From Streptomyces sp. Tu6071 (GTDB lineage Bacteria > Actinomycetota > Actinomycetes > Streptomycetales > Streptomycetaceae), in NCBI RefSeq assembly GCF_000213055.1, contig NZ_CM001165.1, positions 5,416,945 to 5,480,944 on the forward strand: DNA of 64,000 nt. The letters run 5' to 3'. Below the pieces are notes generated by a model. The model was not told the DNA's origin. It saw only the letters and a list, made by a program, of their open reading frames with translations, and made no database searches. Numbering within the stretch: position 1 is the first letter of the stretch; every line of letters starts with the position of its first letter. Positions 37,454-58,335 of this stretch are shown here, one piece after another. The translations under genes and the position numbers were made by a program.

Positions 37454-38119
37454 GTGATCCACGAGGTCGACGAGGTCGTCAAACGCCTCCTGGGCGGGGG
37501 AGCGCTGGCCGGCACGGGGATCGACATCTCCTTCGAGGCCCCCAGCCGGGACTGGGCGGCACGGCGTACGGGGCCCTCGGTCAATGTGTACCTGTACGAC
37601 ATTCGCGAGGACGTGAACCGGCGTCAGCGCGGGCAGGTGCCCGTGCGGGACGCGCGTGACATCGTCGTACGACGCAAGCAGCCCCCGCGCTGGTTCCGCC
37701 TCTCGTACCTCGTGACCGCCTGGACCCGCACACCGCAGGACGAGCACCGCCTGCTCTCGGCCGTGCTCGCGAGCCTCCTGCCGCACGAACTCCTGCCCGC
37801 GGCGACCCTGCCGCCCGCGCTCGCCGCGCTCGGCCTCTCGGTGCCGCTCAGCGTCGCGAGCGCGCAGACCGAGGCGCGGTCCTTCGCCGAGATCTGGTCC
37901 GCGCTCGACGGCGAGCTGAAGCCCTCGCTCGACCTCGCCCTCACGGTCCCCTTCCCCGCCCACCCCGAGTACGACGCGGGCCCGCCCGTCACCGAGGGCG
38001 CCGCGGTCCGCGTACGGGCGGTCGGCGAGCCGTCCGTCACGAGCGAGCGCGCGCACACGCCACGCCAGATCGAGGCGGCGCGCGCGGCGCGGCGCGGAGC
38101 CGTGGAGGAGGGACGATGA
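37454..38119 (+). CDS. cis16: CIS tail terminator/cap protein (DUF4255, Pvc16/Afp16-like)
   Basis: 221 residues. The DUF4255 N-terminal domain is recognisable by IHEVDEVVKRLL, VNVYLYDIREDVNRR and LSYLVTAWTRTPQDEHRLLS. In Afp/PVC systems the homologue caps the tube-sheath end and stops polymerisation. GTG 37454 with GAGGAGAG upstream. The preceding 185 bases include an AT-rich stretch (37270-37330) with TTGACC (37306-37311), probably the operon promoter. The gene is coupled to the ATPase by an ATGA overlap. Confidence 0.92.
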   Translation: MIHEVDEVVKRLLGGGALAGTGIDISFEAPSRDWAARRTGPSVNVYLYDIREDVNRRQRGQVPVRDARDIVVRRKQPPRWFRLSYLVTAWTRTPQDEHRLLSAVLASLLPHELLPAATLPPALAALGLSVPLSVASAQTEARSFAEIWSALDGELKPSLDLALTVPFPAHPEYDAGPPVTEGAAVRVRAVGEPSVTSERAHTPRQIEAARAARRGAVEEGR

Positions 38120-40116
38120 CCGCTCCCGCCGTCACCACGACGCCCGGGGCGAGCCTTCCCGCCCGCCTCGACGCCCTCCGGCACCGCGTGGCCGCCCTCG
38201 TCGCCGACCGGGCGGCCGGCGACCCCACGGCGGACGACCCGCTGCGCGGCCTCTACATCTCGCCCGACACCGTGCGCAGGCTCCTCGACGGCCCGCCGCA
38301 CGAGGACGACGGCCTGCCGGACGGCGCCGAGGCCCCCTCCCGGCCTGTACCGCCCGAGTCCGCGCCCGGCGGCGACCGCTTCGCCGCGCTCGCCACGCGC
38401 TGCGGCCTCACCGCCACCGAGCAGGCGATCCTGCTCCTCGCGCTCGCGCCCGACGTCGACCGCTCCTTCGAGACGCTGTACGGCTACCTCAACGACGACG
38501 TGAGCCGCCGCCGCGCCTCCACCGGCCTCGCCCTCGACCTGTGCGGCCTCTCCGCCGCCGATCCGGGGGCCCGCGCCCGCTTCCACGCCTCGGCCCCGCT
38601 CGTCCGCCTCGGCCTGCTCCGCGTCGACGAGCCCGAGGCGCCCTTCCTCGGCCGCGTCCTGCGCGTACCGGACCGCCTCGTCGCGCACCTCCTCGGCGAC
38701 GACACCCCCGATCCCGTGCTCGCCGGGCTGCTCGGGCCCGTACCCGCGGCGCCCCCGGACGCGCTCACCGAGCGGCTCGCCGCGCTCCTCACCCGTCCGC
38801 TGCCCCCGCTCACGCACCTGCGCGAGCGGCGCGAGGGCGACGGGCTCGCGAGCGCGGGCGCCGCGCTCGCCGCAGCCGGGCGCGAGGCGCTGCACTGCGC
38901 GCCGCCGGAGGACGGGGAACTCCCCGCCGAGGCCCTGCTCCTCGAAGCGCGACTGCGCGACGCCGTCCTCGTCGTCTCGCCGCTGCCCGCGCAGGCCGCC
39001 GCGCTCGTCCGCACGCTCGGCGCCGGGGAGGTGCCGCTCGTCCTCACCGGGCAGACGGCCTTCGACCCCGAGTGGGGCGCCGCCGTGCTCCTGGACGCCC
39101 CGCCCGCGCACGCCCGCGCTGCCGAGCTGTGGGCCCGCGCGCTCGGTACGGAGCCGGACTTCGACCTCGCCGCGACCGTCGCCCCGTACCGGCTCCCCGG
39201 CGCCCGCGTGCGCCGCGCCGCCGCCTCGGCGCTCGAACTCGCCGCCTTCGACGGCACCCCGCTCACCGCCGCGCACCTGCGCCGGGCGGCCCGCCACCAC
39301 ACCTCCTCGGGGCTCGAACAGCACGCGCGGCGCATCGTCCCCGACGTCGGCTGGGACGACCTCGTCCTGCCCCCGGACCCCCTCTCCCACCTGCGCGAAC
39401 TCGCCCTGCGCTGCCGCTACCGCGAGCAGGTGCTCGGGGACTGGCGGCTCAGCGCGGGCGGCGGCAGGGGGCGCGGCGTGCTCGCGCTCTTCGCGGGCGA
39501 GTCGGGGACGGGCAAGACGCTTTCCGCCGAGGTCATCGCCTACGAACTCGGCCTCGACCTCTACGTCGTCCAGCTCTCCTCCGTCGTCGACAAGTACGTG
39601 GGCGAGACGGAGAAGAACCTGGAGCGGATCTTCGCCGAGGCCGATCGCACCGACGCCGTGCTCCTCTTCGACGAGGCCGACGCCGTCTTCGGCAAGCGCT
39701 CCGAGGTCAAGAGCAGCCACGACAAGTACGCCAACATGGAGAGCGCCTACCTGCTGCAACGCCTCGAAGCCTTCGACGGCATCGCGGTCCTCACCACCAA
39801 CCTCCGCGCCAACATCGACGACGCCTTCACGCGGCGCCTCGACCTCATCGTCGACTTCCCCTTCCCGGACGAGGAGCAGCGCCGCGCGCTGTGGCGGCAC
39901 AGCCTCACGCACGTCCCGCACGCCCCGGACCTCGATCCCGGGGCGTGCGCGCGGGACTTCGAGCTGGCGGGCGGCGCGATCCGCAGCGCGGTCGTGACCG
40001 CCGCGTACGCCGCCGCCGCGCGGGGGGACAAGGTGACGGCGGCGGACCTGCGGACCGGGGCGGTGCGCGAGTACCGCAAGGCGGGGCGCATCGTGATGGA
40101 GGACGTGGGCTGGTGA
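38116..40116 (+). CDS. cis15: CIS-associated AAA+ ATPase (Afp15-like)
   Basis: 666 residues. The C-terminal AAA+ domain has Walker A GESGTGKT (461-468), Walker B LLFDEAD (D519, E520) and sensor/Arg-finger region LTTNLRANIDDAFTRRLD. The N-terminal half is a divergent winged-helix/ATPase-like region. Homologues in extracellular and cytoplasmic CIS are needed for assembly, probably at an early step or in recycling, though the exact role is unknown. It is translationally coupled to cis16. Two hairpins follow. Confidence 0.94.
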   Translation: MTAPAVTTTPGASLPARLDALRHRVAALVADRAAGDPTADDPLRGLYISPDTVRRLLDGPPHEDDGLPDGAEAPSRPVPPESAPGGDRFAALATRCGLTATEQAILLLALAPDVDRSFETLYGYLNDDVSRRRASTGLALDLCGLSAADPGARARFHASAPLVRLGLLRVDEPEAPFLGRVLRVPDRLVAHLLGDDTPDPVLAGLLGPVPAAPPDALTERLAALLTRPLPPLTHLRERREGDGLASAGAALAAAGREALHCAPPEDGELPAEALLLEARLRDAVLVVSPLPAQAAALVRTLGAGEVPLVLTGQTAFDPEWGAAVLLDAPPAHARAAELWARALGTEPDFDLAATVAPYRLPGARVRRAAASALELAAFDGTPLTAAHLRRAARHHTSSGLEQHARRIVPDVGWDDLVLPPDPLSHLRELALRCRYREQVLGDWRLSAGGGRGRGVLALFAGESGTGKTLSAEVIAYELGLDLYVVQLSSVVDKYVGETEKNLERIFAEADRTDAVLLFDEADAVFGKRSEVKSSHDKYANMESAYLLQRLEAFDGIAVLTTNLRANIDDAFTRRLDLIVDFPFPDEEQRRALWRHSLTHVPHAPDLDPGACARDFELAGGAIRSAVVTAAYAAAARGDKVTAADLRTGAVREYRKAGRIVMEDVGW

Positions 40117-40199: not shown

Positions 40200-41642
40200 T
40201 CAGTCGCGGGGCAGCAGCGCGAGCCCGTCGAGCGGGTTGCCGTTCGACGTGATGCCGATGAAGAGGTACTCGGGGCGCGGCTTGGCGCAGATGTAGTCCC
40301 CGAGGCTGTTCGTGTGGTGGAAGTGCACGATGTGGCACACCTGGCCGGTCCCCACGGTGACCTTCATCCCCGCGAACGTGGGCGGTTGCAGGTCGTCCTT
40401 GCCGCCCGGGTCGCCGATGTAGAGGTCCGAACCGTCCGGGATCACCTTCGTCGTCGGCCGCCACACGGGCTTCCCGCCGGGGTTGTTCACCAGCGCGGCG
40501 GCGCTGATGCCGTTCATGCCGTACGAGGCGATGTTGATCGCCGTGAACGGCTCCCCGAACGTCTTCCCGTCGGCGTTGATACCGGCGAAGTTGTCCTCGC
40601 AGTTCGGCTTGGACCAGTGGTCCTTCCCGATCCGGATGCGCATGCACATGTGCTTCTTGTCCGGCTTCTGGGTGGCGAGTCTGCGCACCGCCGTCGCGGC
40701 CGTCTCGACGGGGGGCTTCTTGGGCGCCGTCGACTCCTTGGGCTTCCCCCCGCCGCCGCCGTCGTTCTGCGACTGCGAGGGCTGGGGTTGTGCGGCCGGT
40801 GATTCGGCGGGGGCGGAGGGCTGGGCGGGGAGCGAGGGTTGTGCCGAGGGGCTGGGGGCGAGGGAGGAACCCACCTGCTCCATCTGTTCCTCGGCGCGGG
40901 TGGTGACGTTCGGCTTGTGCGCGAACCAGATCATGACGAAGGCGAGTACGAGGGCGAGGAGGATGCCGAGGAAGGTGGCGAGCCAGCGGGGCAGGAAGCC
41001 GCGCTGCACGTACGTGCCGTCGACGGCCTCGGGCGGGACGCCCGCGCGCTGGACGGAGACCTTGAAGGGGTGCTGTTCCTTCGAACCGAACCAGATGATC
41101 CGCTTGGGGCGCAGGGTGAGGTCGACGAAGTGGGCGCGGCCCGGCTCGATCTGCGCGTTGCCGGGGCGTATCTCGTAGGAGAGCTGGTCTCCGTTGTCCT
41201 CGCCGCTCATCGAGGTGGTGAGCTTGGTGTTGCCGAGGTTGTCGACGGCGAGTCTGGGCCTGCCGCGGAAGCGTCCCGCGACTGTCGGAGGGACGAGTTC
41301 GGCGCGCATCTCGGTGAAGGGCAGGATCGTGAGGTTGCCCTCGGGGACCGTGACCGCGTCGGGGTGTTCGGTCGGGGTGATGCGTACGGCGTAGGGGTTG
41401 GGGCCGGCCATCGCGTCCGGGGTGCGGGGCGGCGAGAAGGTCAGTTCGACGGTGCCGGTCGTGCCGGGGTAGAGGCGCAGGACGGCGGGTTCGGCGACGG
41501 TCCAGGGGGCCAGGTCGCCGACGGGTTCGAAGCGGTATTCGTCGACCACGTCCCCCGTGTTGCGCACACGGAGCCGCACGCGGGTGCTGCTGCCGGGCTC
41601 GACGGTCGCCGACGCTGGTTCGAGGGAGGTCCACAGGCTCAC
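40200..41642 (-). CDS. CIS-locus bitopic membrane protein, paralogue A
   Basis: 480 residues. Residues 1-215 form two Ig-like domains of the COG1470 type (LWTSLEPASATVEPG, LRLYPGTTGTVELTF). One membrane helix follows (about 221-241), then a Pro/Ala/Gln/Ser linker (255-320) and a C-terminal domain with four Cys that pair by position with those of paralogue B. There is no signal peptide. The Cys pairs suggest the C-terminal side is outside the cell. It starts with GTG, six bases after a TAGCCT element (leaderless). Homologues in CIS loci are often misnamed hydrolytic proteins. Its role may be membrane docking of the injection system. Confidence 0.85.
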   Translation of the reverse strand: MSLWTSLEPASATVEPGSSTRVRLRVRNTGDVVDEYRFEPVGDLAPWTVAEPAVLRLYPGTTGTVELTFSPPRTPDAMAGPNPYAVRITPTEHPDAVTVPEGNLTILPFTEMRAELVPPTVAGRFRGRPRLAVDNLGNTKLTTSMSGEDNGDQLSYEIRPGNAQIEPGRAHFVDLTLRPKRIIWFGSKEQHPFKVSVQRAGVPPEAVDGTYVQRGFLPRWLATFLGILLALVLAFVMIWFAHKPNVTTRAEEQMEQVGSSLAPSPSAQPSLPAQPSAPAESPAAQPQPSQSQNDGGGGGKPKESTAPKKPPVETAATAVRRLATQKPDKKHMCMRIRIGKDHWSKPNCEDNFAGINADGKTFGEPFTAINIASYGMNGISAAALVNNPGGKPVWRPTTKVIPDGSDLYIGDPGGKDDLQPPTFAGMKVTVGTGQVCHIVHFHHTNSLGDYICAKPRPEYLFIGITSNGNPLDGLALLPRD

Positions 41643-41648
41643 CCGGGC

Positions 41649-41676: not shown

Positions 41677-41732
41677 GGGGGCGGCAGGGCACACCCGGTG
41701 CGCGAAAGGGCCATGTATGCGTACCCAGGAAC

Positions 41733-41809: not shown

Positions 41810-43225
41810 TCACACGTACTTGATGTACAGGAACATCCCGTCGATCGACTTGCTGTTGTCGTTGGTCCCGATGAAGAGCGACTCGGGCCTGGCCTTGTCG
41901 CAGACGAGGTCACCGCGGCTGTTCGTCACGTGGAAGTGCGCCACGTGGCAGATCTCGAACTTCCCGACGGTGATGTTCAGCCCGATCATGAACGGCGGGT
42001 AGTCCCCGCCGGCGCCGATGTAGATGTCCTGGTTGTCCCGCACCGGGGTCCACGGCAGCCACTTCGGCGTCCCCGAGGGGTCGGTCACGTGCGCCTGCGC
42101 CGAGATGCCGTCCACGCTCGACGCCGCGATGTTCATGCCCGTGATCGGCGGGCCCGTCCTGTCGAAGGCGCCGAGCGTGTTCTCGCAGACCGGCTTGCTC
42201 CACTTGCCGCCCTCGAAGCGCAGCCGGTAGCAGATGTGCGGCGCGTCCGGGTCCTCCTTGACCTTCCGGTGCAGCGCCGTCGCCGCCGTCTCCACGGGAG
42301 GCTTGCTCTCCTTCGGCTCGCCCCCGCCACCACCCCCGCCGCCGTCGTTCTGCGACTGCGAGGGCTGGGGTTGTGCGGCCGGTGATTCGGCGGGGGCGGA
42401 GGGCTGGGCGGGGAGCGAGGGTGGTGCCGAGGGGCTGGGGGCGAGGGAGGAACCCACCTGCTCCATCTGTTCCTCGGCGCGGGTGGTGACGTTCGGCTTG
42501 TGCGCGAACCAGAACATGACGAAGGCGAGGGCCAGCGCGAGGAGGATGCCGAGGAAGGTGGCGAGCCAGCGGGGCAGGAAGCCGCGCTGCACGTACGTGC
42601 CGTCGACCGCCTCCGGCGAGACCCCCGCGCGCTGCACCGCGACCTTGAAGGGGTGCTGCTCCTTCGAACCGAACCAGATGATCCGCTTCGGCCGCAGCGT
42701 CAGATCGACGAACTGCGCCCGCCCCGGCTCGATCTGCGCGTTGCCCGGCCGGATCTCGTACGAGAGGTGATCACCCGTGTCCTCGCCGCTCATCGACGTC
42801 GTCAGCTTGGTGTTGCCGAGGTTGTCGACCGCGAGTCTGGGCCTGCCGCGGAAGCGTCCCGCGACCGTCGTGGGCACGAGTTCGGCGCGCATCTCGGTGA
42901 AGGGCAGAATCGTGAGGTTGCCCTCGGGGACCGTCACCGCGTCGGGGTGCTCGGTCGGCGTGATGCGCACGGCGTACGGGTTGGGTCCCGCCGTCGCGTC
43001 CGGGGTGCGCGGGGGCGAGAAGGTCAGTTCGACGGTGCCGGTCGTGCCGGGGTAGAGGCGCAGGACGGCGGGTTCGGCGACGGTCCAGGGGGCCAGGTCG
43101 CCGACGGGTTCGAAGCGGTATTCGTCGACCACGTCCCCCGTGTTGCGCACGCGCAGCCGCACGCGGGTGCTGCTGCCGGGCTCGACGGTCGCCGACGCTG
43201 GTTCGAGGGAGGTCCACAGGCTCAC
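41810..43225 (-). CDS. CIS-locus bitopic membrane protein, paralogue B
   Basis: 471 residues, a tandem duplicate of paralogue A. The first 295 residues (Ig-like domains, membrane helix, linker) differ at only about ten positions, whereas the final 170 residues are strongly diverged apart from the four Cys and scattered motifs: SKPxCE, CHxxHFHxTNSxGDxxC and FIG. It is also GTG-initiated and leaderless. It is divergent from the sheath gene, with 267 bases between. Retention of two copies with different outer domains suggests different binding partners. Confidence 0.85.
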   Translation of the reverse strand: MSLWTSLEPASATVEPGSSTRVRLRVRNTGDVVDEYRFEPVGDLAPWTVAEPAVLRLYPGTTGTVELTFSPPRTPDATAGPNPYAVRITPTEHPDAVTVPEGNLTILPFTEMRAELVPTTVAGRFRGRPRLAVDNLGNTKLTTSMSGEDTGDHLSYEIRPGNAQIEPGRAQFVDLTLRPKRIIWFGSKEQHPFKVAVQRAGVSPEAVDGTYVQRGFLPRWLATFLGILLALALAFVMFWFAHKPNVTTRAEEQMEQVGSSLAPSPSAPPSLPAQPSAPAESPAAQPQPSQSQNDGGGGGGGGEPKESKPPVETAATALHRKVKEDPDAPHICYRLRFEGGKWSKPVCENTLGAFDRTGPPITGMNIAASSVDGISAQAHVTDPSGTPKWLPWTPVRDNQDIYIGAGGDYPPFMIGLNITVGKFEICHVAHFHVTNSRGDLVCDKARPESLFIGTNDNSKSIDGMFLYIKYV

Positions 43226-43492: not shown

Positions 43493-45073
43493 ATGCCGTC
43501 GTACCTGTCGCCCGGCGTCTACGTCGAGGAGGTGGCCAGCGGATCGCGCCCGATCGAGGGAGTGGGCACCTCGGTGGCGGCCTTCGTCGGACTCGCGCCG
43601 ACCGGGCCGCTCAACGAGCCGACCCTCGTCACCAACTGGACCCAGTACACGGCGGCCTTCGGCGAGTTCACCGAGGACTACTACCTCGCGCACTCGGTCT
43701 ACGGCTTCTTCAACAACGGCGGTTCGGCCGCCTACGTCGTACGGGTCGGCGGTGCCCCGCAGGGCGCCTCCGCCGAGTCCGCGACCGACGCCGCCAAGCC
43801 CCGTACCCCCGCCGCGCTGACCGCCGGGGAGCCCCGCCAGCTCGGCACCTTCTCCGTCTCCGCGAGCGGCGAGACGCCCGCCGCGCGGCTCAGCGTCGAG
43901 GTCTCCGACCCCGAGGGCGAGGGCCCCGCCGAGCGCTTCAAGCTCATCGTCAAGGACGGCGAGAAGGCCGTCGAGACCTTCGACGTGAGCGCGAAGAAGG
44001 GCAACCGCGCCTACGTCGTGACGCAGGTCAAGGAGAACTCCCGCTACATCACGGTCACCGAGGCCGCGCCCGCCGCACAGCTCGCGCGCCCCGAGAACCA
44101 GTCGCTCGCCCTCCCCGCCGCCCAGCCCGCGGCCCCGCCCGCCGTCCGCGACGACGTCGCGACACCCGGCCCGGCCCAGTACCTCGGCGACAGCAGCGAC
44201 CGCACCGGCTTCGGCGGCCTGGAGGCCGTCGACGAGATCTCGATGGTCGCCGTCCCCGACCTCATGGCCGCCTACCAGCGCGGCGCGATCGACCTGGAGG
44301 CCGTCAAGGCCGTCCAGCTCGGCCTCATCGCGCACTGCGAGCTGATGGGCGACCGCGTCGCCATCATCGACCCGCCGCCCGGCCTCAACGCCCAGCAGAT
44401 CCGCGTCTGGCGCCAGGACACCGCCGGGTACGACTCGAAGTACGCGGCCCTGTACTACCCGTGGATCAAGTCCTTCGACCCGGCGAGCGGCCAGTCCCGC
44501 CTGGTCCCGCCGAGCGGTCACATCGCCGGCGTGTGGGCCCGCAACGACTCCGAGCGCGGCGTGCACAAGGCGCCCGCCAACGAGGTCGTGCGCGGCGCCG
44601 TCGACCTGGAGCTCCAGATCACGCGCGGCGAGCAGGACCTGCTCAACCCCATCGGCGTCAACTGCATCCGCGCCTTCCCGGGCCGGGGCATCCGCGTCTG
44701 GGGCGCCCGCACCCTCGCCTCCGACCCGGCGTGGCGCTACCTCAACATCCGCAGGTACTTCAACTACCTGGAGGAGTCCATCCTCATCGGCACCCAGTGG
44801 GTGGTCTTCGAGCCCAACGACCACCAGCTGTGGGCCCGCATCCGGCGCAACGTCTCCGCGTTCCTCGTCAACGAGTGGCGCTCCGGGGCCCTCTTCGGCG
44901 CGAAGCCCGAGGACGCCTACTACGTCAAGTGCGACGAGGAGACGAACCCGCCGGAGTCCGTCGACATCGGCCGCGTCATCTGCGAGATCGGCATCGCGCC
45001 CGTCAAGCCCGCCGAGTTCGTCGTCTTCCGCCTCGCCCAGTTCTCCAGCGGCAGCGGCGAGCTGGAGGAGTAG
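43493..45073 (+). CDS. cis2: CIS contractile sheath protein
   Basis: 526 residues. The N-terminus YLSPGVYVEEVASGSRPIEG is the conserved sheath linker arm shared by phage T4-like tails, T6SS, Afp/PVC and CIS sheaths. The C-terminal core includes GIRVWGARTLASD, NIRRYFNYLEESI and a final VFRLAQFSSGSGELEE. An inserted variable domain lies at about 85-235. GAGGAG lies eight bases before ATG 43493. A single sheath gene is present, unlike Afp/PVC, which have several. A hairpin just after the gene may lower read-through into the tube gene. Confidence 0.97.
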   Translation: MPSYLSPGVYVEEVASGSRPIEGVGTSVAAFVGLAPTGPLNEPTLVTNWTQYTAAFGEFTEDYYLAHSVYGFFNNGGSAAYVVRVGGAPQGASAESATDAAKPRTPAALTAGEPRQLGTFSVSASGETPAARLSVEVSDPEGEGPAERFKLIVKDGEKAVETFDVSAKKGNRAYVVTQVKENSRYITVTEAAPAAQLARPENQSLALPAAQPAAPPAVRDDVATPGPAQYLGDSSDRTGFGGLEAVDEISMVAVPDLMAAYQRGAIDLEAVKAVQLGLIAHCELMGDRVAIIDPPPGLNAQQIRVWRQDTAGYDSKYAALYYPWIKSFDPASGQSRLVPPSGHIAGVWARNDSERGVHKAPANEVVRGAVDLELQITRGEQDLLNPIGVNCIRAFPGRGIRVWGARTLASDPAWRYLNIRRYFNYLEESILIGTQWVVFEPNDHQLWARIRRNVSAFLVNEWRSGALFGAKPEDAYYVKCDEETNPPESVDIGRVICEIGIAPVKPAEFVVFRLAQFSSGSGELEE

Positions 45074-45263: not shown

Positions 45264-45707
45264 ATGAGTCTCCAGCCGGGCGATGCCCTCACATCGCACA
45301 ATTTCGGCCTCCAGATCGACGGCGTCATGGTCGAGTACCTGGCCGAGGTCAGCGGCCTGAGCCTGGAACAGGACGTCATCGAGTACCAGCAGGTCTCGGC
45401 GCAGGGCGTCCCCGTCGTCAAGAAGATGCCGGGCGTCCAGAAGGCCGGCACCGCCACCGTCGTGCGCGGCATGACGCAGTCCAAGGCGTTCAACGACTGG
45501 ATCAACCAGTCCGTGCGCGGCGAGATGAGCAGCGCCCGCAAGAACGCCACGATCATGGTGATGGACTACCAGAACAACCCGGTCAAGCGGTACAACATGC
45601 GCAACGCCTGGTGCAGCAAGATCGACACCAGCACCGTCAAGGCGGGCGAGGCCAGCGCCCTCACCGAGAGCGTGACGATCACCTTCGAAGAACTGGTCAT
45701 CGAGTAA
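45264..45707 (+). CDS. cis1: CIS inner tube protein
   Basis: 147 residues of the gp19/Hcp-like tube family: HNFGLQIDGVMVEYLAEVSG at the start, VVRGMTQSKAFNDWI in the middle and a final SVTITFEELVIE strand. It stacks as hexameric rings inside the sheath. AAGGACGAGC precedes the ATG. Its stop overlaps the next start (TAATG). The only gap in the main operon longer than 150 bases is directly upstream and contains short CAGCGG repeats and no gene. Confidence 0.96.
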   Translation: MSLQPGDALTSHNFGLQIDGVMVEYLAEVSGLSLEQDVIEYQQVSAQGVPVVKKMPGVQKAGTATVVRGMTQSKAFNDWINQSVRGEMSSARKNATIMVMDYQNNPVKRYNMRNAWCSKIDTSTVKAGEASALTESVTITFEELVIE

Positions 45708-46201
45708 TGCGGCGCACTGCTGCCCGGGCGGCGGGCGGCGGGCCCGTCCCGCCGCCCGCCGCCGCGGCGTCGGAGGAGCCGCTCGGCACGGGTCCCGTCA
45801 CGGCCCCCGCGCCCTCCCCGGCACCCCGCCGCCTCCAGACCGAGTTCCCCTTCGAGCTTCCGCGCGGGTACGTGGACGACGCGGGCACGCTCCACCGCGA
45901 GGGCGTCATGCGGCTCGCGACGGCCCGCGACGAACTCGTGCCGCTGCGGGACGTACGGGTCCAGGAGAACCCCGCGTACCTGTCGGTCGTGCTCCTCGGC
46001 CGGGTCATCACCCGGCTCGGCACGCTGTCGCTCGTGCACGACGGGGTCGTGGAGAACATGTTCGCCTCTGACCTCGCCTTCCTCCAGGACTTCTACCGGC
46101 AGATCAACGCCGAGGGCCACACGCGCGCGGCGGTCGAGTGCCCGCACTGCGCGGAGCCCTTCGAGATCGACCTCGGCGGGAGCCGCCTGGGGGAATCGTG
46201 A
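45707..46201 (+). CDS. CIS assembly/chaperone-like protein with CxxC
   Basis: 164 residues. The disordered Ala/Pro-rich lead (1-42) is followed by a compact domain starting LQTEFPFELPRGYVDDAGTL and ending in CPHCAEPFEIDLGG, a probable half zinc knuckle. It resembles phage-tail assembly proteins found between tube and tape-measure genes. Its stop overlaps the GTG of the next gene. A role in tube or baseplate assembly is inferred from position. Confidence 0.85.
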   Translation: MRRTAARAAGGGPVPPPAAAASEEPLGTGPVTAPAPSPAPRRLQTEFPFELPRGYVDDAGTLHREGVMRLATARDELVPLRDVRVQENPAYLSVVLLGRVITRLGTLSLVHDGVVENMFASDLAFLQDFYRQINAEGHTRAAVECPHCAEPFEIDLGGSRLGES

Positions 46202-50437: not shown

Positions 50438-50863
50438 ATGTCACGCGAACTCGACCCGGGTTCCACCATCTTCTTCACCCTCACCATCGACGGCGAGAGC
50501 CTCGGCTACTTCAACGGGTGCGAGGGGCTTTCGTCGACCGTCGAGGTCGAGACGCGCCAGGAGGGCGGGAACAACGGCTTCGTGTGGCAGCTTCCCTCCC
50601 GCGTGACCTTCTCCACGATCCGGCTCACCCGGCCGCTCACGCCCGACACCACCAAGGTCGCCAAGTGGATCTCCTCCGTGACCACCGGGATCAAGCGGCC
50701 CACCGCGCAGATCGCCGCGCTGCGCGCCGACGGCTCCGAGGTGGCGCGCTGGGGGCTCATCGACGTGCTGCCCGTCAGCTGGCAGGGGCCCTCGCTCGAC
50801 CCGGCCAACCCCGGCGTCGCCAACGAGGTCCTGGAGATCACCCACCACGGCTTCACGGACTGA
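50438..50863 (+). CDS. second CIS tube-like protein (baseplate-proximal)
   Basis: 141 residues of the gp19/tube superfamily: GSTIFFTLTIDGESLGYFNGCEG at the start and VLEITHHGFTD at the end, more diverged from the cis1 product. In Afp/PVC, such second tube proteins (Afp5-like) form the first ring between spike and main tube. Its position right before the LysM protein supports this. AGAAAGGC lies before the ATG. Confidence 0.9.
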   Translation: MSRELDPGSTIFFTLTIDGESLGYFNGCEGLSSTVEVETRQEGGNNGFVWQLPSRVTFSTIRLTRPLTPDTTKVAKWISSVTTGIKRPTAQIAALRADGSEVARWGLIDVLPVSWQGPSLDPANPGVANEVLEITHHGFTD

Positions 50864-50885: not shown

Positions 50886-51605
50886 ATGGCTTCCAGCAGT
50901 GGCGCCGGGAAGAGTCTCGTTCGCGCCAGCCTCGCCATCCACGAGCCGCCCGTCGGCGACGGCACCTCGCCCGGCGCGCTCATGAAGACCTTCGACTTCG
51001 ACTTCAACCCCACGGGGCTCCAGCTCCAGCGGCGCACCGTGTGGAAGGCGACCGCGACCGCCGCCGTGCGCGACGGCGCGACGCCCGAGTTCATGGGGCC
51101 CGAGCCGCGCGAGATGACCGTCGAGATCTTCCTCGACACGTCCGACGAGCCCAGCTCGAACACCGTGCTGCGCAAGGTCGAGTCGCTGCTCGACTGCTGC
51201 GAGGTGACGAGCAAGAGCATCGCCGCCAAGCGGCCCTCGCCGCCCTGGGTCGTCTTCCAGTGGGGCTCGTTCTCGACGGCGCGGTTCATCGCCTACGTCG
51301 CCGCCGTGGACGTCTCGTACTCGCTCTTCGGCACGACCGGCGTGCCCATCCGCGCGACCTGCCGGGTGACCCTGCACGAGATACCCGGCTCCACCGAGGG
51401 CCAGAACCCCACGTCGGGGGCCCTCACCGCGCGCCGCGTGCACCGCGTCGTCGCGGGCGACTCGCTCCAGTCGCTCGCCTGGAACGAGTACGGGAACACC
51501 GCCGCCTGGCGCGCCATCGCCGAGGCCAACGACATCGACGACCCGTCCCGGCTCTCCAGCGGTACCGAACTCGTCCTGCCCGCCGCCGAGGAGGTGCGTT
51601 CCTGA
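50886..51605 (+). CDS. cis7: CIS LysM baseplate protein (Afp7-like)
   Basis: 239 residues. A baseplate core domain (about 30-175) with MKTFDFDFNPTGLQLQRR and SVSYSLFGTTG-like strands is followed by a C-terminal LysM motif (about 187-232: HRVVAGDSLQSLAWNEYGN). LysM here connects tube and spike proteins, as in gp53-like phage proteins, rather than binding peptidoglycan. The stop codon overlaps the next ATG by one base. Confidence 0.94.
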   Translation: MASSSGAGKSLVRASLAIHEPPVGDGTSPGALMKTFDFDFNPTGLQLQRRTVWKATATAAVRDGATPEFMGPEPREMTVEIFLDTSDEPSSNTVLRKVESLLDCCEVTSKSIAAKRPSPPWVVFQWGSFSTARFIAYVAAVDVSYSLFGTTGVPIRATCRVTLHEIPGSTEGQNPTSGALTARRVHRVVAGDSLQSLAWNEYGNTAAWRAIAEANDIDDPSRLSSGTELVLPAAEEVRS

Positions 51606-53509
51606 TGACCCGCCCCGCCCACTCCGCCGTCCTCCACGTCACGATCGGCGGCGCCCCGCTGCCCCGCGACGTCGCGCCGCTGCTCGTCGACGGCTGGGTC
51701 GACCAAGGCGTCGGCGTCCCCGCCGCCTTCCGGCTCACCTTCCGCGACCCGCACCACATCGTCCTCGGCAAGGTCAACGCCGACTTCGGCACGCCCGTCG
51801 TCATCGCGCCCGTCGCGGACGGCAAAGGCGCCTCCGAGCCACTGCTGACCGGCGAGGTGACGGGGCTCGAGGCCGACTACGACGGCACCGGTTCCTTCAC
51901 CGTCATCCGCGGCTACGACGCCGGGCACCGGCTGCTCCGCCAGCGCCGCGTCGCCGCGTACCGCAACCAGTCCGCGTCCGACATCGTGCGCAAGCTCGCC
52001 GGGCTCGACGGCGTGCCGATCGGCCGCGTCGAATCGACCCGCACCGTCTACGAGTTCCTCAGCCAGGCGAACGTCACCGACTGGGACTTCCTCGCCCGTC
52101 TCGCCGACGAGAACGAGATGGTCATGTCCGTCGACGCGAAGGGCAAGCTCCAGTTCGTCACGCCGGACCCGGCCTCCGGCGCGCCGCCCGTGAGCACGCC
52201 GGGCGACAAGAGCCCGTACGTCCTGGAGGCCGGCACGGACATCCTGCGGCTGCGCACCTCCGTGACCGCCGCCGAGCAGGTCGCGACCGTCGAGGCGCGC
52301 GGCTGGGACGTCACGACGAAGAAGGAACTCACCGCCACCGCGCCCGCGAAGAGCAACCCGGCCATCGGCATCGGGACGACGCCGGGCAAGGCGGCGGGGA
52401 AGTTCAAGAGCGCCAAGCTCGTCGACGCGCAGGTCCCCTACGACCGGCAGGCCGAGGTCAAGCACGCCGCCGACGCGCTCGCCGACGACGTCACCTCCTC
52501 CTTCGCCGAGCTGGAGGTCGTGGTCCGCGGAACGCCCAAGCTGCGCCCGGGACTTCCCGTCGCACTCGCCGACGTCGGCACGCCCTTCGAGGGCAAGTAC
52601 ACCGCGACCTCGGTGCGGCACGTCTTCGGCGACGGCAAGCACTACGAGGCGTGGGTCACGGTCAGCGGCAGGCAGTGGCGCTCCTTGTACGGGCTCGCCT
52701 CCGGCGGGGGCGGCGGCGACCGGCAGGGGCTCGCGCTCCCCGGCGTCGTCAACGCGCTCGTCACCGACGCGCAGGACCCGCTCAAGCAGGGCCGCGTCAA
52801 GCTCCGCTTCCCCTGGCTCGACGACGCCTACGTCAGCGACTGGACCCGCGTCACGCAGTGGGGCGGCGTACGCGGCGGCTCGATCTTCCCGCTCGACGTC
52901 GGCGACGAAGTGCTCGTCGGCTTCGACCGGGGCGCGCTCGACCACCCGTACGTCCTCGGCGGCCTCTACAACGGCAAGGACAAACCGACCAAGGTGACCG
53001 ACGTGCCCCTGCACGACGGGGCGCGGCAGAAGGCCGCCCGCCACACCCTCTCCGACCGCACGGGCAACAGGCTCGACCTGCTCAGCCAGCGCACCGGCGG
53101 CAAACAGGGCGTCCGCCTGACGAGCGGGGACGGCAAACTCGTCGTCAACCTCGACCGCGCGCAGACCGAGATCACCGTCGACAGCAGGGGCACGGTGAAG
53201 ATCAAGGGCAGCAAGTCGGTCTCCGTGGACGCCGGGACGAACCTCTCGCTCAGCGCCAAGGGCAGACTGAGCATCAGCAGCGGCGGGCCGCTGAGCATCA
53301 ACGGGAAGGGGCCGGTGAGCGTCCGCAGCCTGACCGCGCTCAACGTGGACGGCGGACCGGCGCTCAGCCTCAGCTCCAAGGGCGTGGCCACGCTCAGCTC
53401 CCTGGGCACCCTCCAGGTCAACGCCACCGCCAACCTCGGGCTGCGGGCCGCCTCGCTGCTCGTCCAGGGGATCGTCATGGTCAACGGGAAGCCGTACCCG
53501 ATCCCGTGA
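51605..53509 (+). CDS. cis8: CIS spike, VgrG-like (Afp8-like)
   Basis: 634 residues. The gp27-like hub occupies about 1-340 (TVYEFLSQANVTDWDFLARL). The OB-fold (about 385-480) contains DPLKQGRVKLRFPWL, the VgrG/gp5 signature. A C-terminal triple-helix beta spike follows, built from short repeats such as SLSAKGRLSISSGG. The end VNGKPYPIP matches where a PAAR tip would bind, but no PAAR gene is seen in the locus. Confidence 0.95.
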   Translation: MTRPAHSAVLHVTIGGAPLPRDVAPLLVDGWVDQGVGVPAAFRLTFRDPHHIVLGKVNADFGTPVVIAPVADGKGASEPLLTGEVTGLEADYDGTGSFTVIRGYDAGHRLLRQRRVAAYRNQSASDIVRKLAGLDGVPIGRVESTRTVYEFLSQANVTDWDFLARLADENEMVMSVDAKGKLQFVTPDPASGAPPVSTPGDKSPYVLEAGTDILRLRTSVTAAEQVATVEARGWDVTTKKELTATAPAKSNPAIGIGTTPGKAAGKFKSAKLVDAQVPYDRQAEVKHAADALADDVTSSFAELEVVVRGTPKLRPGLPVALADVGTPFEGKYTATSVRHVFGDGKHYEAWVTVSGRQWRSLYGLASGGGGGDRQGLALPGVVNALVTDAQDPLKQGRVKLRFPWLDDAYVSDWTRVTQWGGVRGGSIFPLDVGDEVLVGFDRGALDHPYVLGGLYNGKDKPTKVTDVPLHDGARQKAARHTLSDRTGNRLDLLSQRTGGKQGVRLTSGDGKLVVNLDRAQTEITVDSRGTVKIKGSKSVSVDAGTNLSLSAKGRLSISSGGPLSINGKGPVSVRSLTALNVDGGPALSLSSKGVATLSSLGTLQVNATANLGLRAASLLVQGIVMVNGKPYPIP

Positions 53510-53569: not shown

Positions 53570-54004
53570 ATGGCTGAACAATTCGTCGGTTCCGGCTGGG
53601 CCTTCCCGCTGCGCATCAGCCCCACCGGGGGCATCGCGCTCGTCAGCGGCGAGCGCGAGGTCGAGGAGGCAATCCGGCTCGTCCTCGCCACCGCGCCCGG
53701 CGAGCGGCCCATGCGCCCCGAGTTCGGCTGCGCGATCCACGACCTCGTCTTCTCGCCCGTCAACGAGGCGACGGCCGGGCGCATCCAGCACGAGGTGTAC
53801 GCGAGCCTCGACCGCTGGGAGCCCCGGATCGAGGTCCAGGAGGTCGACGTCACCGCCGGGGCCGAGCAGAACATCCTCTTCATCGACGTGCGCTACTCGA
53901 TCCGCGGCACCAACAACCCGCGCAGCCTCGTCTTCCCCTTCTACGTCATCCCCTCCCACGAGGAACCGGGCACGACCGGTGACTCCCCCGAAAGCGACCG
54001 CTGA
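53570..54004 (+). CDS. cis9: CIS baseplate wedge protein, gp25-like
   Basis: 144 residues of the GPW/gp25 family: GWAFPLRISPTGGIALVSGE, EEAIRLVLATAPGERPMRPEFG (with the conserved EPR-like core as ERPMRPEFGC), and a C-terminal strand region. It initiates sheath assembly at the baseplate. Its stop overlaps the next ATG. Confidence 0.95.
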   Translation: MAEQFVGSGWAFPLRISPTGGIALVSGEREVEEAIRLVLATAPGERPMRPEFGCAIHDLVFSPVNEATAGRIQHEVYASLDRWEPRIEVQEVDVTAGAEQNILFIDVRYSIRGTNNPRSLVFPFYVIPSHEEPGTTGDSPESDR

Positions 54005-55962
54005 TGGCACTGCCCTCGCCCCACCTCGACGACCGCCGCTTCCAGCAGTTCGTGGACGACGCCAAGCGCTACATCCAGCAGCGCGCCCCGGAGTGGACCG
54101 ACCACAACGTCTCGGACCCCGGCGTGACCCTCGTGGAGACCATGGCCCACATGGCCGACCAGGTCGTCTACCGGCTCAACCGCGTCCCGGAGAAGAACCA
54201 CCTGGCCTTCCTCGACCTCGTCGGCATCACCCTCTTCCCGCCCGCCGCCGCGCGCACCGACGTCACCTTCCGGCTCTCCGCGCCGCAGGAGGAGACCGTC
54301 CGCCTGCCCGAGGGCACCGAGGTCGCGACGCAGCGCACCGAGAGCGAGGAGGCCGTCGTCTTCGCGACCGAACGGGACCTCGCCGTCGTGCCCTGCGCGC
54401 TCGGCCACCTCGTCACGCAGCGCCAGGGCGCCTCCTTCAGCGACCGCACCACCGACCTTGCCGAGGAGAAGGACGTCCTCTGCTTCGCCGAGTCCCCGCG
54501 CCCCGGCGACGCGATGCTCTTCGGCCTCACCACCGCCGTGCCGCACTGCGTCGTCGCGCTCGAACTCGACAGCCGCGTCGACGGCGTCGGCGTCGACCCC
54601 CGCCAGCCCCCGCTCGTGTGGGAGGCGTGGACGGAGGACGGCTGGCAGGAGTGCGAGATCGACGAGGACGGGACCGGCGGCCTCAACCGCCCCGGGGACG
54701 TCGTGCTGCACGTGCCCGGCGGGCACGTCGTCTCGCGCTCGGGCGGGCAGCCCGGCGGCTGGCTGCGCTGCCGCGTCACCGAACCCCTCGCCAACCAGCC
54801 CTTCTACACGACGTCCCCGACCGTGCGCTCCGCCGCCGCCTGCACCGTCGGCGGCACCGTGCCCGCGGTCCACGCCGACACCGTCACCGACGAGGCCCTC
54901 GGCGAGTCCACCGGCCTTCCCGGCCAGCACCTGCGCCTCGCGCACGCGCCCGTCGTCGGCGACACCCCGCCGCTCCTGCTCCAGACCGCCGAGCAGGAGG
55001 GCTGGCAGGACTGGCACGTCGTCCCGCACTTCGCCGCCTCGGGCCCCGAGGACCGGCACATCACCGTCGACGCCACGACCGGCGAGGTGGCCTTCGGCCC
55101 GTCCGTACGCGAACCGGACGGGACCCTGCGGCAGTACGGGGCCGTCGCCCCCAAGGGCGCGGTCATCCGGGCCCGCCGCTACCGCATCGGCGGCGGGCGC
55201 GCGGGCAACGTGGCGCGCGGCGCGGTCCGCGTCCTGCGCACCTCGGTCCCGTACGTCTCCGAGGTCGTCAACCGCGAGGCCGCGCGCGGCGGCGTGGACG
55301 GCGAGACCGTGCAGGAGGCGAAGGTCCGCGCACCGATCACCCTGCGCGCGCAGGAGCGCGCCGTGACCCTGCGCGACTACGAGGAACTCGCCCGCCGCGC
55401 CGCGCCCGAGACGGCGCGCATCACGTGCCTGGAGGGCAAGGAGAACGAGCACGGTGCCTACGCGGTTCGTGTCCTCGTCGTCCCGCAGGCCGTGCCCGAC
55501 CCGGGAGGGCGGCTGCGCTTCGAGCAACTGGTCCCGGGCGACGCCCTGCTCCAGCGCATCACGCGGCACCTCGACGAGCGGCGCCTCATCGGCACGCGCA
55601 TCGCGGTCGGGCCGCCGTACTACCAGGGCGTGACGGTCGTCGCGACGGTGCACGCCTTCCGGGGCGTCGACACCGACCGCGTACGGCGCGAGGCCCACGA
55701 TGCCCTCTACCGGCACCTCGACCCGCTCACCGGCGGCGCGGACGCCAAGGGCTGGCCCTTCGGGCGGCCCGTGCAGGCCGGGGAGGTCTTCGCGGTGCTC
55801 CAGCGCGTGCCGGGCGTCGAACTCGTCGACGAGGTCACCCTCCACCCCGCCGACCCGCTCACGGGCAAGCGCGGCGAGGCCACCGACCGGATCGACCTGC
55901 GCGAACCGGCGCTCGTCTTCTCGTACGACCACCGGGTCCGTGTGATCGGGGGCAACGCGTAG
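54004..55962 (+). CDS. cis11: CIS baseplate J-like protein (Afp11-like)
   Basis: 652 residues of the 'putative baseplate assembly protein' family. The start holds WTDHNVSDPGVTLVETMAHM, which anchors to gp25 and LysM. A central insertion of beta-rich domains follows, and a C-terminal J-like part contains RGAVRVLRTSVPYVSEVVN and ITCLEGKENEHGAYAVRVLV. It forms the wedge of the baseplate with cis12. It is translationally coupled to cis9. Confidence 0.94.
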   Translation: MALPSPHLDDRRFQQFVDDAKRYIQQRAPEWTDHNVSDPGVTLVETMAHMADQVVYRLNRVPEKNHLAFLDLVGITLFPPAAARTDVTFRLSAPQEETVRLPEGTEVATQRTESEEAVVFATERDLAVVPCALGHLVTQRQGASFSDRTTDLAEEKDVLCFAESPRPGDAMLFGLTTAVPHCVVALELDSRVDGVGVDPRQPPLVWEAWTEDGWQECEIDEDGTGGLNRPGDVVLHVPGGHVVSRSGGQPGGWLRCRVTEPLANQPFYTTSPTVRSAAACTVGGTVPAVHADTVTDEALGESTGLPGQHLRLAHAPVVGDTPPLLLQTAEQEGWQDWHVVPHFAASGPEDRHITVDATTGEVAFGPSVREPDGTLRQYGAVAPKGAVIRARRYRIGGGRAGNVARGAVRVLRTSVPYVSEVVNREAARGGVDGETVQEAKVRAPITLRAQERAVTLRDYEELARRAAPETARITCLEGKENEHGAYAVRVLVVPQAVPDPGGRLRFEQLVPGDALLQRITRHLDERRLIGTRIAVGPPYYQGVTVVATVHAFRGVDTDRVRREAHDALYRHLDPLTGGADAKGWPFGRPVQAGEVFAVLQRVPGVELVDEVTLHPADPLTGKRGEATDRIDLREPALVFSYDHRVRVIGGNA

Positions 55963-56017: not shown

Positions 56018-56590
56018 GTGAGGGGTTCGATCGACGGGCTCGGCTCGTCCGCGCCGCTCGGCGCCATGCTGCCCGCCGTCTTCGCCGACGACGACCTCGC
56101 GCAGCGCTTCGTCGGCGGGCTCGACGAAGTCCTCGCGCCGATCCTCAACGTCCTCGACTGCCTGCCCGCCTACTTCGACCCCGCGCTCGCGCCCGTCGAC
56201 TTCACGCGCTGGCTCGCGGAGTGGGTCGGCGCCGAGACGGACGGCGACGCGCCGGAGAACGCGGAGGCGGAGGCGCGGCTGCGGGACGCCGTCGCCGCCG
56301 CCGCGCGCCTGCACCGGGTCCGGGGCACCCGGCACGGGCTCGCCGAGGCGGTACGGCTCGCCTTCGGCGCCGAACCGGAGATCAGCGAGAGCGGGGGCGC
56401 CGACTGGAGCGCCCGCCCGCTCGGCGCCTTCCCCGGCGAGCGCAGGCCCCACCTGCACGTGACCCTCCGCCTCGCCGATCCCAAACCCACCGACACTCAC
56501 CGCCTCAGCGCCCTCGTCGCGGCGGCCCGCCCCGCGCACATGCCGTACACGGTCAAGGTGACCACGGCCGAAAGGACTCCTCGGACATGA
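56018..56590 (+). CDS. cis12: CIS baseplate protein, tail protein I-like (Afp12-like)
   Basis: 190 residues. Recognisable phage tail protein I features: MLPAVFADDDLAQRFVGGLD, the WLAEWVG core and RLHRVRGTRHGLAEAVRLAF. GTG 56018 follows GGGGGAGGTGACGGG. It partners the J-like protein in the wedge. Its end overlaps the next ATG (ATGA). Confidence 0.93.
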   Translation: MRGSIDGLGSSAPLGAMLPAVFADDDLAQRFVGGLDEVLAPILNVLDCLPAYFDPALAPVDFTRWLAEWVGAETDGDAPENAEAEARLRDAVAAAARLHRVRGTRHGLAEAVRLAFGAEPEISESGGADWSARPLGAFPGERRPHLHVTLRLADPKPTDTHRLSALVAAARPAHMPYTVKVTTAERTPRT

Positions 56591-58335
56591 CGACGACCCA
56601 GAACTGCGCCGAGTGCGGAACGCGCGCGGAGCCAGGCCAGTCGTTCTGCGACGGCTGCGGGGCTGTGCTGCGGTGGAAGGACGCGGGCGCGGCGGGCGGG
56701 GGTGCCGCTGGTGCGGGTGCTTCCGGCGGAGGTTCTTCCGGCGCGGGTGATTCCTTCGGTGGTGCTTCCGGCGCGGGTGCCTCTGGTGGGGGTGCCTCCT
56801 TCGGTGGTGCTTCCGGCGCGGGTGCCTCTGGTGGAGGTGACTCCTTCGGTGGTGCTTCGGGCGCCGGTGCTTCCGCTGGGGGCGCTTCCGGCGGTGGCGC
56901 TTCCGAGGACGGCGCGGCCGGCCGGGAGGCCGAGGTGCCGCGGTCGCGCGGGGTGCGGATGGAGCGGCCACGCGCGGAGGCGACCGGCGGTGCGGGTACC
57001 TCCGGCGGCGGTACGGGCGCGGGTGTCCCCGGTGCCGGTGAGCAGCCCCGTACCCCCACCGGGCAAGTCGAGCAGGTCCCGTGGCCCGCGCGGGCCGGGG
57101 CGCAGGGGCGCCAGATAGGCGCCGAGGAGCTGGAGCCGTCCGGCGGGGCGACGGGGACCGGGGTGTGGGCGCGCGGCGAAGTGGCCGGAAGCCCGGCCCC
57201 CGACGCGGAGGTCCCGACGCCCCACACCCCGGCTGCGGTCACGGGTGCGGGCAGGGGCACGGCTACGGGCTCAAGCGCGGGTTACGGCGCGGAGGCCCCG
57301 GCCCCGCACGCCCCGCTCCCGGACTCGGAGGCCCCGACGCCGCACACCCCCCTCGTCACCTCCGAGGCCCCGACCCCCAGCACCCCGCTCTCCGCGGGCC
57401 CGCTCCCCTCCGGCCCGCTCCCCTCGGGCCCCGGCCCGGAGACGCACGCGCGGGCCCGCAACCTGCTCGTGCCCGTCGCCGACGAGGAGCACCCGGCCCC
57501 CGCGACGCCCTCCGTCGCGCCCGTCCTGCCGGGCCGCCCTGTCGCCGACCGCCCGACCGTCCGCGCCCCCGGGCCCGAGACCGGTGCCGTGGGCGGCCCG
57601 CCGTGCCCCTGGTGCGGCACCCCGAACCGCCCCGACCGGCACCACTGCGCCCGCTGCGCGATGCCGCTCGCGCGCGGCGAGGAGGAGGACGAGGCCCGGC
57701 TGCCGTGGTGGCGCCGCATTCTCGACGGCCGCCGCAACGCGGTCCCGTGGGCGGGCGAACGCCCGCGCCTGCGCCGTACCTTCGACCGCGTCCTGCGCTG
57801 GATCGTCGCCGCCGTCGTCATCGGGCTCGTCGTCTTCCTCGGCATGAAGGCGCCCGCCGGGATACAGGCGACCCGTGACCACTTCGCGAAGCGCTCCCTC
57901 GTCAGCCCCGACGACTTCGCCGCCTCGCGCAACTTCCCCGGCCACAAGCCCGACCTCGCCTTCGACGGGCTCAGCAACACGTGGTGGGGGCCCGGGGTCT
58001 CGGGACCGGCGCAGGGCGAGTGGGTGGAGGCCCGCTTCGACGAGCCGACCCGCCTCCTCAACCTGATCATCACCCCGGGCGTCTCGACGAAGTCCAACCG
58101 CATCAGGGAATCCGCCCTTCCGCACCGCGTCACCGCGACCATCACCATGAAGGACGGCAAGATCAAGACGCGTGAACTCGTCCTCGACCAGGGCCCCGGC
58201 GGCCAGACCCGCGCCTTCGGCGTCGGCGAGGTGACCAAGGTCCGCTTCACGGTCGACTCGTCCTACGGGGCCACCAAGGAGAAGCAGCTCGCGATCGCGG
58301 AGATCGAGTTCTTCGGCCCCTCCGGCGACAACTGA
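56587..58335 (+). CDS. bitopic zinc-ribbon/discoidin membrane protein at CIS locus end (CisA candidate)
   Basis: 582 residues. The order is an N-terminal zinc ribbon (C7, C10, C21, C24), a Gly/Ala/Ser repeat segment with three 15-residue repeats (56-100), a long Pro-rich linker, a second zinc ribbon (C340, C343, C354, C357), a basic stretch, one membrane helix (about 405-421) and an F5/8 type C (discoidin, NADase-type glycan-binding) domain (about 435-582) that should lie outside the membrane. Architecture and last-gene position match, from memory, the bitopic protein CisA described for Streptomyces CIS, which links the particle to the membrane. That identity is inference. It is coupled to cis12 by ATGA. 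Confidence 0.88.
   Translation: MTTTQNCAECGTRAEPGQSFCDGCGAVLRWKDAGAAGGGAAGAGASGGGSSGAGDSFGGASGAGASGGGASFGGASGAGASGGGDSFGGASGAGASAGGASGGGASEDGAAGREAEVPRSRGVRMERPRAEATGGAGTSGGGTGAGVPGAGEQPRTPTGQVEQVPWPARAGAQGRQIGAEELEPSGGATGTGVWARGEVAGSPAPDAEVPTPHTPAAVTGAGRGTATGSSAGYGAEAPAPHAPLPDSEAPTPHTPLVTSEAPTPSTPLSAGPLPSGPLPSGPGPETHARARNLLVPVADEEHPAPATPSVAPVLPGRPVADRPTVRAPGPETGAVGGPPCPWCGTPNRPDRHHCARCAMPLARGEEEDEARLPWWRRILDGRRNAVPWAGERPRLRRTFDRVLRWIVAAVVIGLVVFLGMKAPAGIQATRDHFAKRSLVSPDDFAASRNFPGHKPDLAFDGLSNTWWGPGVSGPAQGEWVEARFDEPTRLLNLIITPGVSTKSNRIRESALPHRVTATITMKDGKIKTRELVLDQGPGGQTRAFGVGEVTKVRFTVDSSYGATKEKQLAIAEIEFFGPSGDN
56752..56886 (+). repeat. 45-bp in-frame repeat, three copies
   Basis: Three successive 15-residue units (SFGGASGAGASGGG plus A or D) in the Gly/Ser linker of the zinc-ribbon membrane protein. 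The flanking sequence has degenerate copies. Confidence 0.85.

Follow-up and report, generated by a model that had tools for sequence, protein, structure and literature searches.

A disordered protein encoded between the tube genes as a candidate length ruler of the contractile injection system of Streptomyces sp. Tu6071

Contractile injection systems (CISs) of the Streptomyces kind are reported to form particles of uniform length (PMC10066040, PMC12237407), and three papers (PMC10066040, PMC12237407, PMC10286715) describe the clusters as lacking a tape measure gene or one of the typical kind. Which component, then, sets the length of this machine? Here, the question was approached through a CIS locus in a 64,000-nucleotide stretch of the Streptomyces sp. 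Tu6071 genome (the window) and through its relatives in other genomes. A search for sheath relatives found 289 stretches, the best 80 of which were used as named loci.

A CIS locus of the Streptomyces kind

A preliminary description of the window had placed one complete CIS of the cytoplasmic actinobacterial type at positions 37454–58335. Gene calling and profile searches confirmed this: each part named earlier was placed by profile matches far beyond chance, and the core set is present in full, with matches to the cap, AAA ATPase, sheath, tube (two proteins), LysM hub, VgrG spike, gp25, J and I families (Table 1). The locus is arranged like an operon, as one unit. The sheath and Pvc16_N profiles each matched once in the whole genome, and the second tube protein was matched in 59 of 121 genomes of the genus. 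Two systems occur side by side in several genomes.

Table 1. Features of the CIS locus and its upstream regulator, in window positions.
Feature	Position	Strand	Basis
LuxR-type regulator	36477..37268	+	GerE 7.5e-12; one TTA
Cis16 cap / tail terminator, Pvc16_N/DUF4255	37454..38119	+	profile 8.9e-43; PDB 9gts
Cis15 AAA ATPase, winged-helix domain	38116..40116	+	profile match
Sco4256-type putative effector, copy A	40200..41642	-	layout, TM scan, family profiles
Sco4256-type putative effector, copy B	41810..43225	-	twin of copy A
Cis2 sheath	43493..45073	+	profile 5.4e-31; PDB
Cis1a tube, T4 gp19-like	45264..45707	+	gp19 profile 6.6e-31
Zinc-ribbon-like protein, resembles phage tail / hub assembly proteins	45707..46201	+	phrog_508, Foldseek
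DUF6760 small protein	46198..46353	+	8e-12
Slot protein 5' ORF, conserved N-terminus	46358..48745	+	ORF calls, comparison with relatives
Slot protein 3' ORF, conserved C-terminal helix	48595..50292	+	ORF calls, comparison with relatives
Cis1b tube initiator, gp19	50438..50863	+	profile 7.2e-31; PDB
Cis7 tube initiator, CIS_tube+LysM	50886..51605	+	profile match
Cis8 VgrG-like spike	51605..53509	+	profile match
Cis9 gp25-like	53570..54004	+	3e-26
Cis11 Baseplate_J	54004..55962	+	profile match; PDB
Cis12 Tail_P2_I	56018..56590	+	profile match
CisA-like membrane adaptor	56587..58335	+	Zn_Ribbon_1 1.2e-5; NF047619 1e-22; TM scan

The assigned CIS type was likewise supported, as all four proteins that were compared singly with the PDB had their best match in CIS-Sc, the type IId system of S. 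coelicolor (sco4242–4260). The Cis2 sheath was nearest to 8bky/9gtp (1018.6 bits), Cis1b and the J-like Cis11 to 9gtp, the latter with all 652 residues covered, and the Cis16 cap to 9gts; PMC12237407 lists 9GTP and 9GTS among its deposits in the data statement. CIS-Sc also resembles the locus in its component kinds, its gene order, the CisA-like gene and the Sco4256-type genes, but three effector copies are reported there, compared with two here. The locus thus almost certainly encodes a cytoplasmic type IId CIS of the Streptomyces kind, and it is a new member of an already known kind, the machine itself being well studied. By analogy with published CIS work, the particle would remain in the cytoplasm and act on the producer in strain Tu6071 as well.

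Two further observations of the preliminary description held. A simple hydropathy scan revealed a strongly hydrophobic N-terminus in no protein of the locus, in agreement with the stated lack of signal peptides, and one internal transmembrane (TM) segment in three of them, namely both minus-strand proteins and the CisA-like protein. No adjacent head, packaging or integrase genes were found when ten of the flanking genes were compared with PHROGs, where terminase, portal and integrase were never the best match, and when 10 + 9 locus proteins were submitted to profile search. An M23 peptidase gene (31948–33150) is situated 4.3 kb upstream of the locus; through its M23 part, it hit PHROGs for endolysin, for one minor head protein and for several tape measures. 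A regulator at 28730–29596 showed a weak PHROGs match to a transposition protein.

Several genes had been overlooked in that description: a pair of twins at 40200–43225, the CisA-like gene, the genes for the zinc-ribbon-like and DUF6760 proteins and a long low-complexity gene, as well as the TTA codon of the LuxR-type regulator. Copy A of the twins has an Ig-like N-terminus, to which profiles matched weakly, followed by one TM segment, a low-complexity linker and a C-terminal domain; the TM segment lies at about aa 215–246 in both copies. At the DNA level, the copies share 80–100% identity per 60-column block over the first ~900 columns and about 58–73% thereafter, and 19 of 20 upstream bases are common to both. 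Their C-terminal parts are related (46% over 110 residues). According to PMC10066040, Sco4256–4258 each have a single TM and are highly similar at their N-termini; since the twins have the layout described there, they were assigned to the Sco4256 type, a likening by description that draws on architecture and on relatives in 75 loci. At the C-terminal domain, ChW was matched in 28 of 32 members of this family and, up to E = 1, in neither window copy. SLP of S. lividans, which carries Sle1/Sle2, belongs to the same intracellular CIS type but differs from the present locus: no Sle1/Sle2-type effector and no eCIS_core match was seen in the window, and the place upstream of the sheath gene is taken by the two Sco4256-type twins. 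Orphan eCIS_core matches are located elsewhere in the genome of strain Tu6071.

The CisA-like protein, whose start ATG overlaps the Cis12 stop, combines a zinc ribbon, a repeat-rich linker, a second CxxC pair (read from the translation), one TM segment at about aa 398–428 and an NADase-type glycan-binding domain. Its Cys-rich segment, TM and conserved C-terminal domain are the architecture by which it was likened to the published description of CisA (SCO4242). The TTA codon of the LuxR-type regulator is aa 258 of 263, and dependence on bldA is therefore possible, as control of this kind through a TTA codon in sco4263 has been reported (PMC10020575). As a rule for the clade, bldA control was rejected, because only 5 of the 56 regulator homologues examined contain TTA.

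A long gene of held length between the tube genes

The long low-complexity gene, located between the two tube genes at 46358–50292 and hereafter called the slot gene, is split in the window, with the frame changing inside the overlap of its two ORFs. Since three clade A loci likewise lack a single ORF and four contain N runs, the split possibly stems from misassembly of DNA that is rich in repeats and in GC. The product is a disordered, low-complexity chain rich in Pro, Ala, Ser, Thr and Gly.

Loci of three Streptomyces clades, and also seven distant actinobacterial loci (L146–L152; 687–1125 residues), have a slot ORF flanked by the two tube genes. In clade A, a single clean ORF fills the gap in 61 of 68 distinct loci and measures 1225 ± 97 residues (range 1006–1486); the seven loci left out of this mean have N runs (L011, L023, L034 and L061) or no single ORF that fills the gap (L036, L050 and L106). 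The C-terminal motif was found in 60 of the 61 retained loci. Slot proteins of clade B are shorter, with 641 ± 87 residues (7 loci). In clade C, the length is 955 ± 164 over 11 loci and 1030 ± 30 over the eight retained after omission of L098 and L099, whose ORFs of 609 and 614 aa lack the C-terminal motif, and of L092, in which the longest ORF lies in another frame and the proper slot ORF has 1045 residues from stop to stop. The order differs in L141–L145, where the tube initiator directly follows the DUF6760 gene; an ORF comes after the initiator in L141 and L142 (233–242 aa) and in L143 and L145 (1,202–1,288 aa), while the initiator match of L144 lies inside a 979-aa ORF. A large or low-complexity ORF comes after the second tube gene in Deinococcus and Nostoc. 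Finally, L153 (a 9.3-kb contig) has the DUF6760 gene, the tube initiator and a LysM-type hub match in succession and lacks a large ORF both before and after the second tube gene, which shows that a related cluster can do without a slot ORF at this place.

The constraint on this protein is distributed unevenly. An HMM built from 49 clade A C-termini was used to screen 42 other loci with 6470 ORFs. All 26 matches below 1e-4 fell on the C-terminal end of a slot ORF, and the next E-value was 1.4; 16 of the 42 loci, including those of Deinococcus and Nostoc, had no match. The middle of the protein is nearly shuffled in comparison, with 39% identity versus 35% for shuffled sequences in 150 sampled pairs. 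Its length difference nevertheless stayed flat with divergence, in a set of 150 pairs of which just eight exceed 45% identity. In 17 genomes, the slot ORF was clean and the CisA frame contained exactly four CxxC motifs, and these genomes allowed a direct comparison with the CisA linker: the coefficient of variation of length was 0.06 for the slot protein and 0.32 for the linker, and the length variance per residue was 5.5-fold lower for the slot protein (bootstrap 95% 1.7–20.9, uncorrected for relatedness). The chain also carries a recurrent VQR motif, present 12.7 times per slot protein compared with 0.21 times after shuffling, at a median spacing of 61 residues; in 59 of 60 slot proteins the count was above that of each of 100 shuffles.

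Tape-measure genes of phages follow the order tube, chaperone, long protein, hub. The same succession, with a chaperone-like gene of the phrog_508 type, is seen around the slot gene, and the length per residue is of similar size. The slot protein differs from the phage proteins in being disordered and Pro-rich instead of coiled-coil, and in having no known tape-measure profile match. Pfam gave no match for the intact slot relative P0009 or for either window ORF, NCBIfam no tape-measure family for the window 3' ORF, and none of the tape-measure PHROGs was matched by the Nostoc slot protein. Therefore, the slot protein is said here to work like a tape measure, yet it is not classed as one. The last 60 residues of P0009, used as a query, yielded just one protein among 59 candidates, and the size of the family was consequently counted from loci.

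The chaperone-like assignment concerns the zinc-ribbon-like neighbour, which by its place would correspond to SCO4251. In phage P1, a chaperone gene has been suggested just upstream of the tape measure. Of 157 neighbour ORFs, 30 members were chosen, and 28 of these matched phrog_508 (tail assembly chaperone) at E ≤ 0.01, although single matches were weak (best 2.5e-7; window copy 0.0024). The predicted model of the protein (pLDDT 80.6) gave a best viral Foldseek E-value of 6.8e-8, with low TM-scores of 0.47/0.29; the named fold matches are baseplate or T4-like hub assembly proteins, not chaperones. The PDB provided no fold match at E ≤ 0.001 and no profile match for this protein.

On the basis of the place between tube, chaperone-like gene and hub, the conserved ends, the near-random middle and the held length, we propose that the slot protein is the length ruler of the CIS, with a probability of roughly 0.6. 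The proposed ruler is shared by the Streptomyces clades examined and is not peculiar to strain Tu6071.

Published particles and competing explanations

Published knockouts narrow the choice of other rulers. Particles were built normally after loss of Sco4256–4258 (PMC10066040), and normal assembly is also reported after loss of Sle1/2, of the ATPase (PMC10020575) or of CisA (PMC12237407), so that these candidates drop out. The cryoEM atomic model, as described, comprises SCO4243–4248, 4252–4253 and 4260, with the slot gene product absent; judged by position, the three genes between the modelled ones would be the chaperone-like, DUF6760 and slot genes. The passage of PMC10020575 on particle proteins of unknown function names sco4242, sco4256 and sco4251 and leaves the slot gene unnamed, and particles without Sco4256–4258 appear mostly empty (PMC10066040). 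In such images, one disordered chain might escape detection. For the S. coelicoflavus slot protein, 40 tryptic peptides of 7–30 residues are predicted, which together cover 47% of the chain. Published accounts of CIS-Sc name no tape measure, whereas one is proposed here by position and constraint; in the titles, abstract openings and passages covered, no ruler assignment for the slot gene was found. A search for literature on DUF6760 found nothing, and the tag SCO4249, which by position would be that of the slot gene in S. coelicolor, turned up in one paper, as a label for PhoP.

The lengths reported for particles can be set beside those of the proteins. S. coelicolor particles are of one length, with 60 tube rings and an in-situ value of 233 nm, compared with 268 nm for the model (PMC12237407); a TEM length of 295 nm is found in PMC10020575, together with empty sheaths that vary in length. 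The slot protein of S. coelicoflavus, the nearest relative among the genomes compared, has 1354 aa, which, across these two different species, corresponds to 0.17–0.20 nm per residue at 233–268 nm; the value for phage TP901-1 is 0.145 nm per residue. The large ORFs after the second tube gene on Deinococcus plasmids have 1838, 1973, 1506 and ~1817 residues (mechanical starts; the last overlaps the tube gene), and D. aquatilis particles are 365 ± 39 nm long; for C. chliarophilus and R. castenholzii, the published in-situ values are 238 and 217 nm. The corresponding ORF of a Nostoc plasmid has 524 residues, and Anabaena particles measure 119 nm with 22 rings. The large D. psychrotolerans protein has three homologues and the Nostoc slot protein 13, each including itself, none of them labelled D. 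aquatilis or Anabaena PCC 7120, respectively. The lengths fit as a trend only, as each pair mixes species, the gene place differs and the cyanobacterial lineage is maybe another one. One simple length scale is unfit, because in S. davawensis a Tme protein of >2,000 aa stands against ~200 nm particles, seen in a truncation mutant.

Tme is likewise a large CIS-cluster protein with a tape-measure link, but it is described with a DUF4157 and an endonuclease domain, while the slot proteins tested have no Pfam domain. The Afp14 gene of the antifeeding prophage lies after the fibres. Its product has a reported role in length (PMC10066040) and was likened to the slot protein by description.

The chief competitor of the ruler is cargo: the slot protein could be a luminal cargo or an effector scaffold of an ordinary type IId CIS whose length is set otherwise. 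This is a live rival, since the large D. psychrotolerans protein after the second tube gene carries, close to its end, the effector core domain eCIS_core; tape-measure-like CIS effectors have also been published, and the orphan eCIS_core places of the Tu6071 genome would suit it. We nevertheless consider it unlikely, as the window ORFs and P0009 lack any Pfam domain, the length is tight despite near-random sequence, and known effectors are reportedly dispensable for assembly. The two readings overlap, since a phage tape measure can serve both as ruler and as cargo.

Less probable still, and on the whole doubtful, is that the slot protein merely glues the structure together, as a disordered factor for hub or spike assembly that nucleates the particle and measures nothing. 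Conserved N- and C-terminal segments and the Foldseek link between the neighbour and T4-like hub assembly proteins agree with such a role, but a nucleation factor has no need of a 1,000-residue spacer with 6–8% length variation. That the whole locus is a defective prophage tail or R-type tailocin, as its phage-tail order, its gp25/J/I baseplate and the endolysin-like M23 peptidase upstream could indicate, is highly implausible in view of the DUF4255 cap, the AAA ATPase, the LysM CIS_tube protein, the CisA-like and Sco4256-type genes, the CIS-Sc matches and the PHROGs result for the ten flanking genes scanned.

Proposed mode of measurement and its implications

Under the ruler hypothesis, the unfolded chain would be held by the chaperone-like protein, and perhaps by DUF6760 too, with the C-terminal helix serving as its anchor at the baseplate hub. 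Tube rings would then stack along the chain, whereby the VQR motifs may act as contacts, until none of the chain is left; at that point, the cap would bind and end growth. The finished sheathed tube with cap and baseplate would float in the cell. Under stress, as reported for S. coelicolor, the CisA-like membrane protein would dock the particle and trigger firing, and delivery of the Sco4256-type membrane effectors would kill or alter the producing hypha.

A wider proposition is tentative, and we give it slightly less than an even chance: that cytoplasmic CISs of Actinomycetota, and perhaps of Deinococcota and cyanobacteria, are measured by a new disordered VQR-repeat tape measure with conserved ends, that gene length predicts machine length, and that in Deinococcus, through an effector-core domain, a single molecule is both ruler and cargo.

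The locus as such adds a further copy of a well-studied machine, and its novelty rests in the slot protein. If this protein is the ruler, the published gap of the missing tape measure closes, and a disordered ruler would depart from the coiled-coil model of phages. CIS length would then become readable from genomes, with the machines of clade B (~640 aa) expected to be about half as long as those of clade A (~1,230 aa).

Integrity of the slot gene and its relatives

In the genome of Streptomyces sp. Tu6071, a frame change splits the slot gene, which encodes a long disordered protein proposed as a length ruler and lies between the DUF6760 gene and the second tube gene. A single slot ORF is likewise missing in 3 of the 68 distinct loci of clade A, one of three Streptomyces clades with slot-gene loci, and runs of N lie within 4 of these 68. 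Contig breaks seem to be frequent around the slot-gene position, because in 29 of the 80 named loci (the best 80 of 289 stretches encoding sheath relatives) the retrieved sequence contains DUF6760 and lacks the second tube gene.

The S. phaeoluteigriseus locus carries the front half of the cluster up to and including DUF6760, and no second tube or baseplate match was found within 9 kb beyond it. On the S. clavuligerus plasmid, the slot ORF of 1381 residues is missing in the distributed gene table, which is known to be incomplete and gives two small hypothetical genes there instead. One annotated ORF on the Deinococcus grandis plasmid resembles the tube protein at its start and, at its end, the large proteins present in the other Deinococcus loci; it looks as though the intervening genes had been lost or collapsed.

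Features discussed, with positions in the window unless a locus or contig is named
Feature	Position	Strand
HTH_31/DUF5753 regulator, then 67-aa gene	28552-29596	
M23 peptidase	31948-33150	minus
AAA_16 + LuxR regulator	33442-36258	
Twin effector gene, copy A	40200-41642	minus
Twin effector gene, copy B	41810-43225	minus
Slot gene	46358-50292	
D. grandis plasmid ORF	L154: 19675-23454	
S. clavuligerus plasmid slot ORF	L158: 16792-20937	
Orphan eCIS_core (DUF4157), L167	G000:C1:652638-652859	
Orphan eCIS_core (DUF4157), L168	G000:C1:3141947-3142161	

Genes bordering the locus

Upstream of the injection system, the M23 peptidase matched endolysin and tape-measure PHROGs via its peptidase domain. 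The large AAA_16 and LuxR regulator adjoins the CIS regulator, and tblastn found similar sequence bordering many other loci. Of the gene pair farther upstream, the profile scan covered the HTH_31/DUF5753 regulator; next to it, in the same orientation, comes a 67-aa gene whose product presumably resembles the small DUF397-type proteins that accompany regulators of this family.

Putative effectors within and outside the locus

For about 900 columns the twin Sco4256-type putative effector genes match almost completely; they diverge beyond, a pattern that suggests a recent duplication or gene conversion. Two or three effector N-terminal matches per locus occur in 32 of the 75 loci with a match, counting the window's own cut stretch; in one locus (L008), two of these matches resemble fragments of a single copy. 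Elsewhere in the genome, both orphan places encoding the effector core domain eCIS_core are distant from the CIS locus, and they could be effectors in trans.
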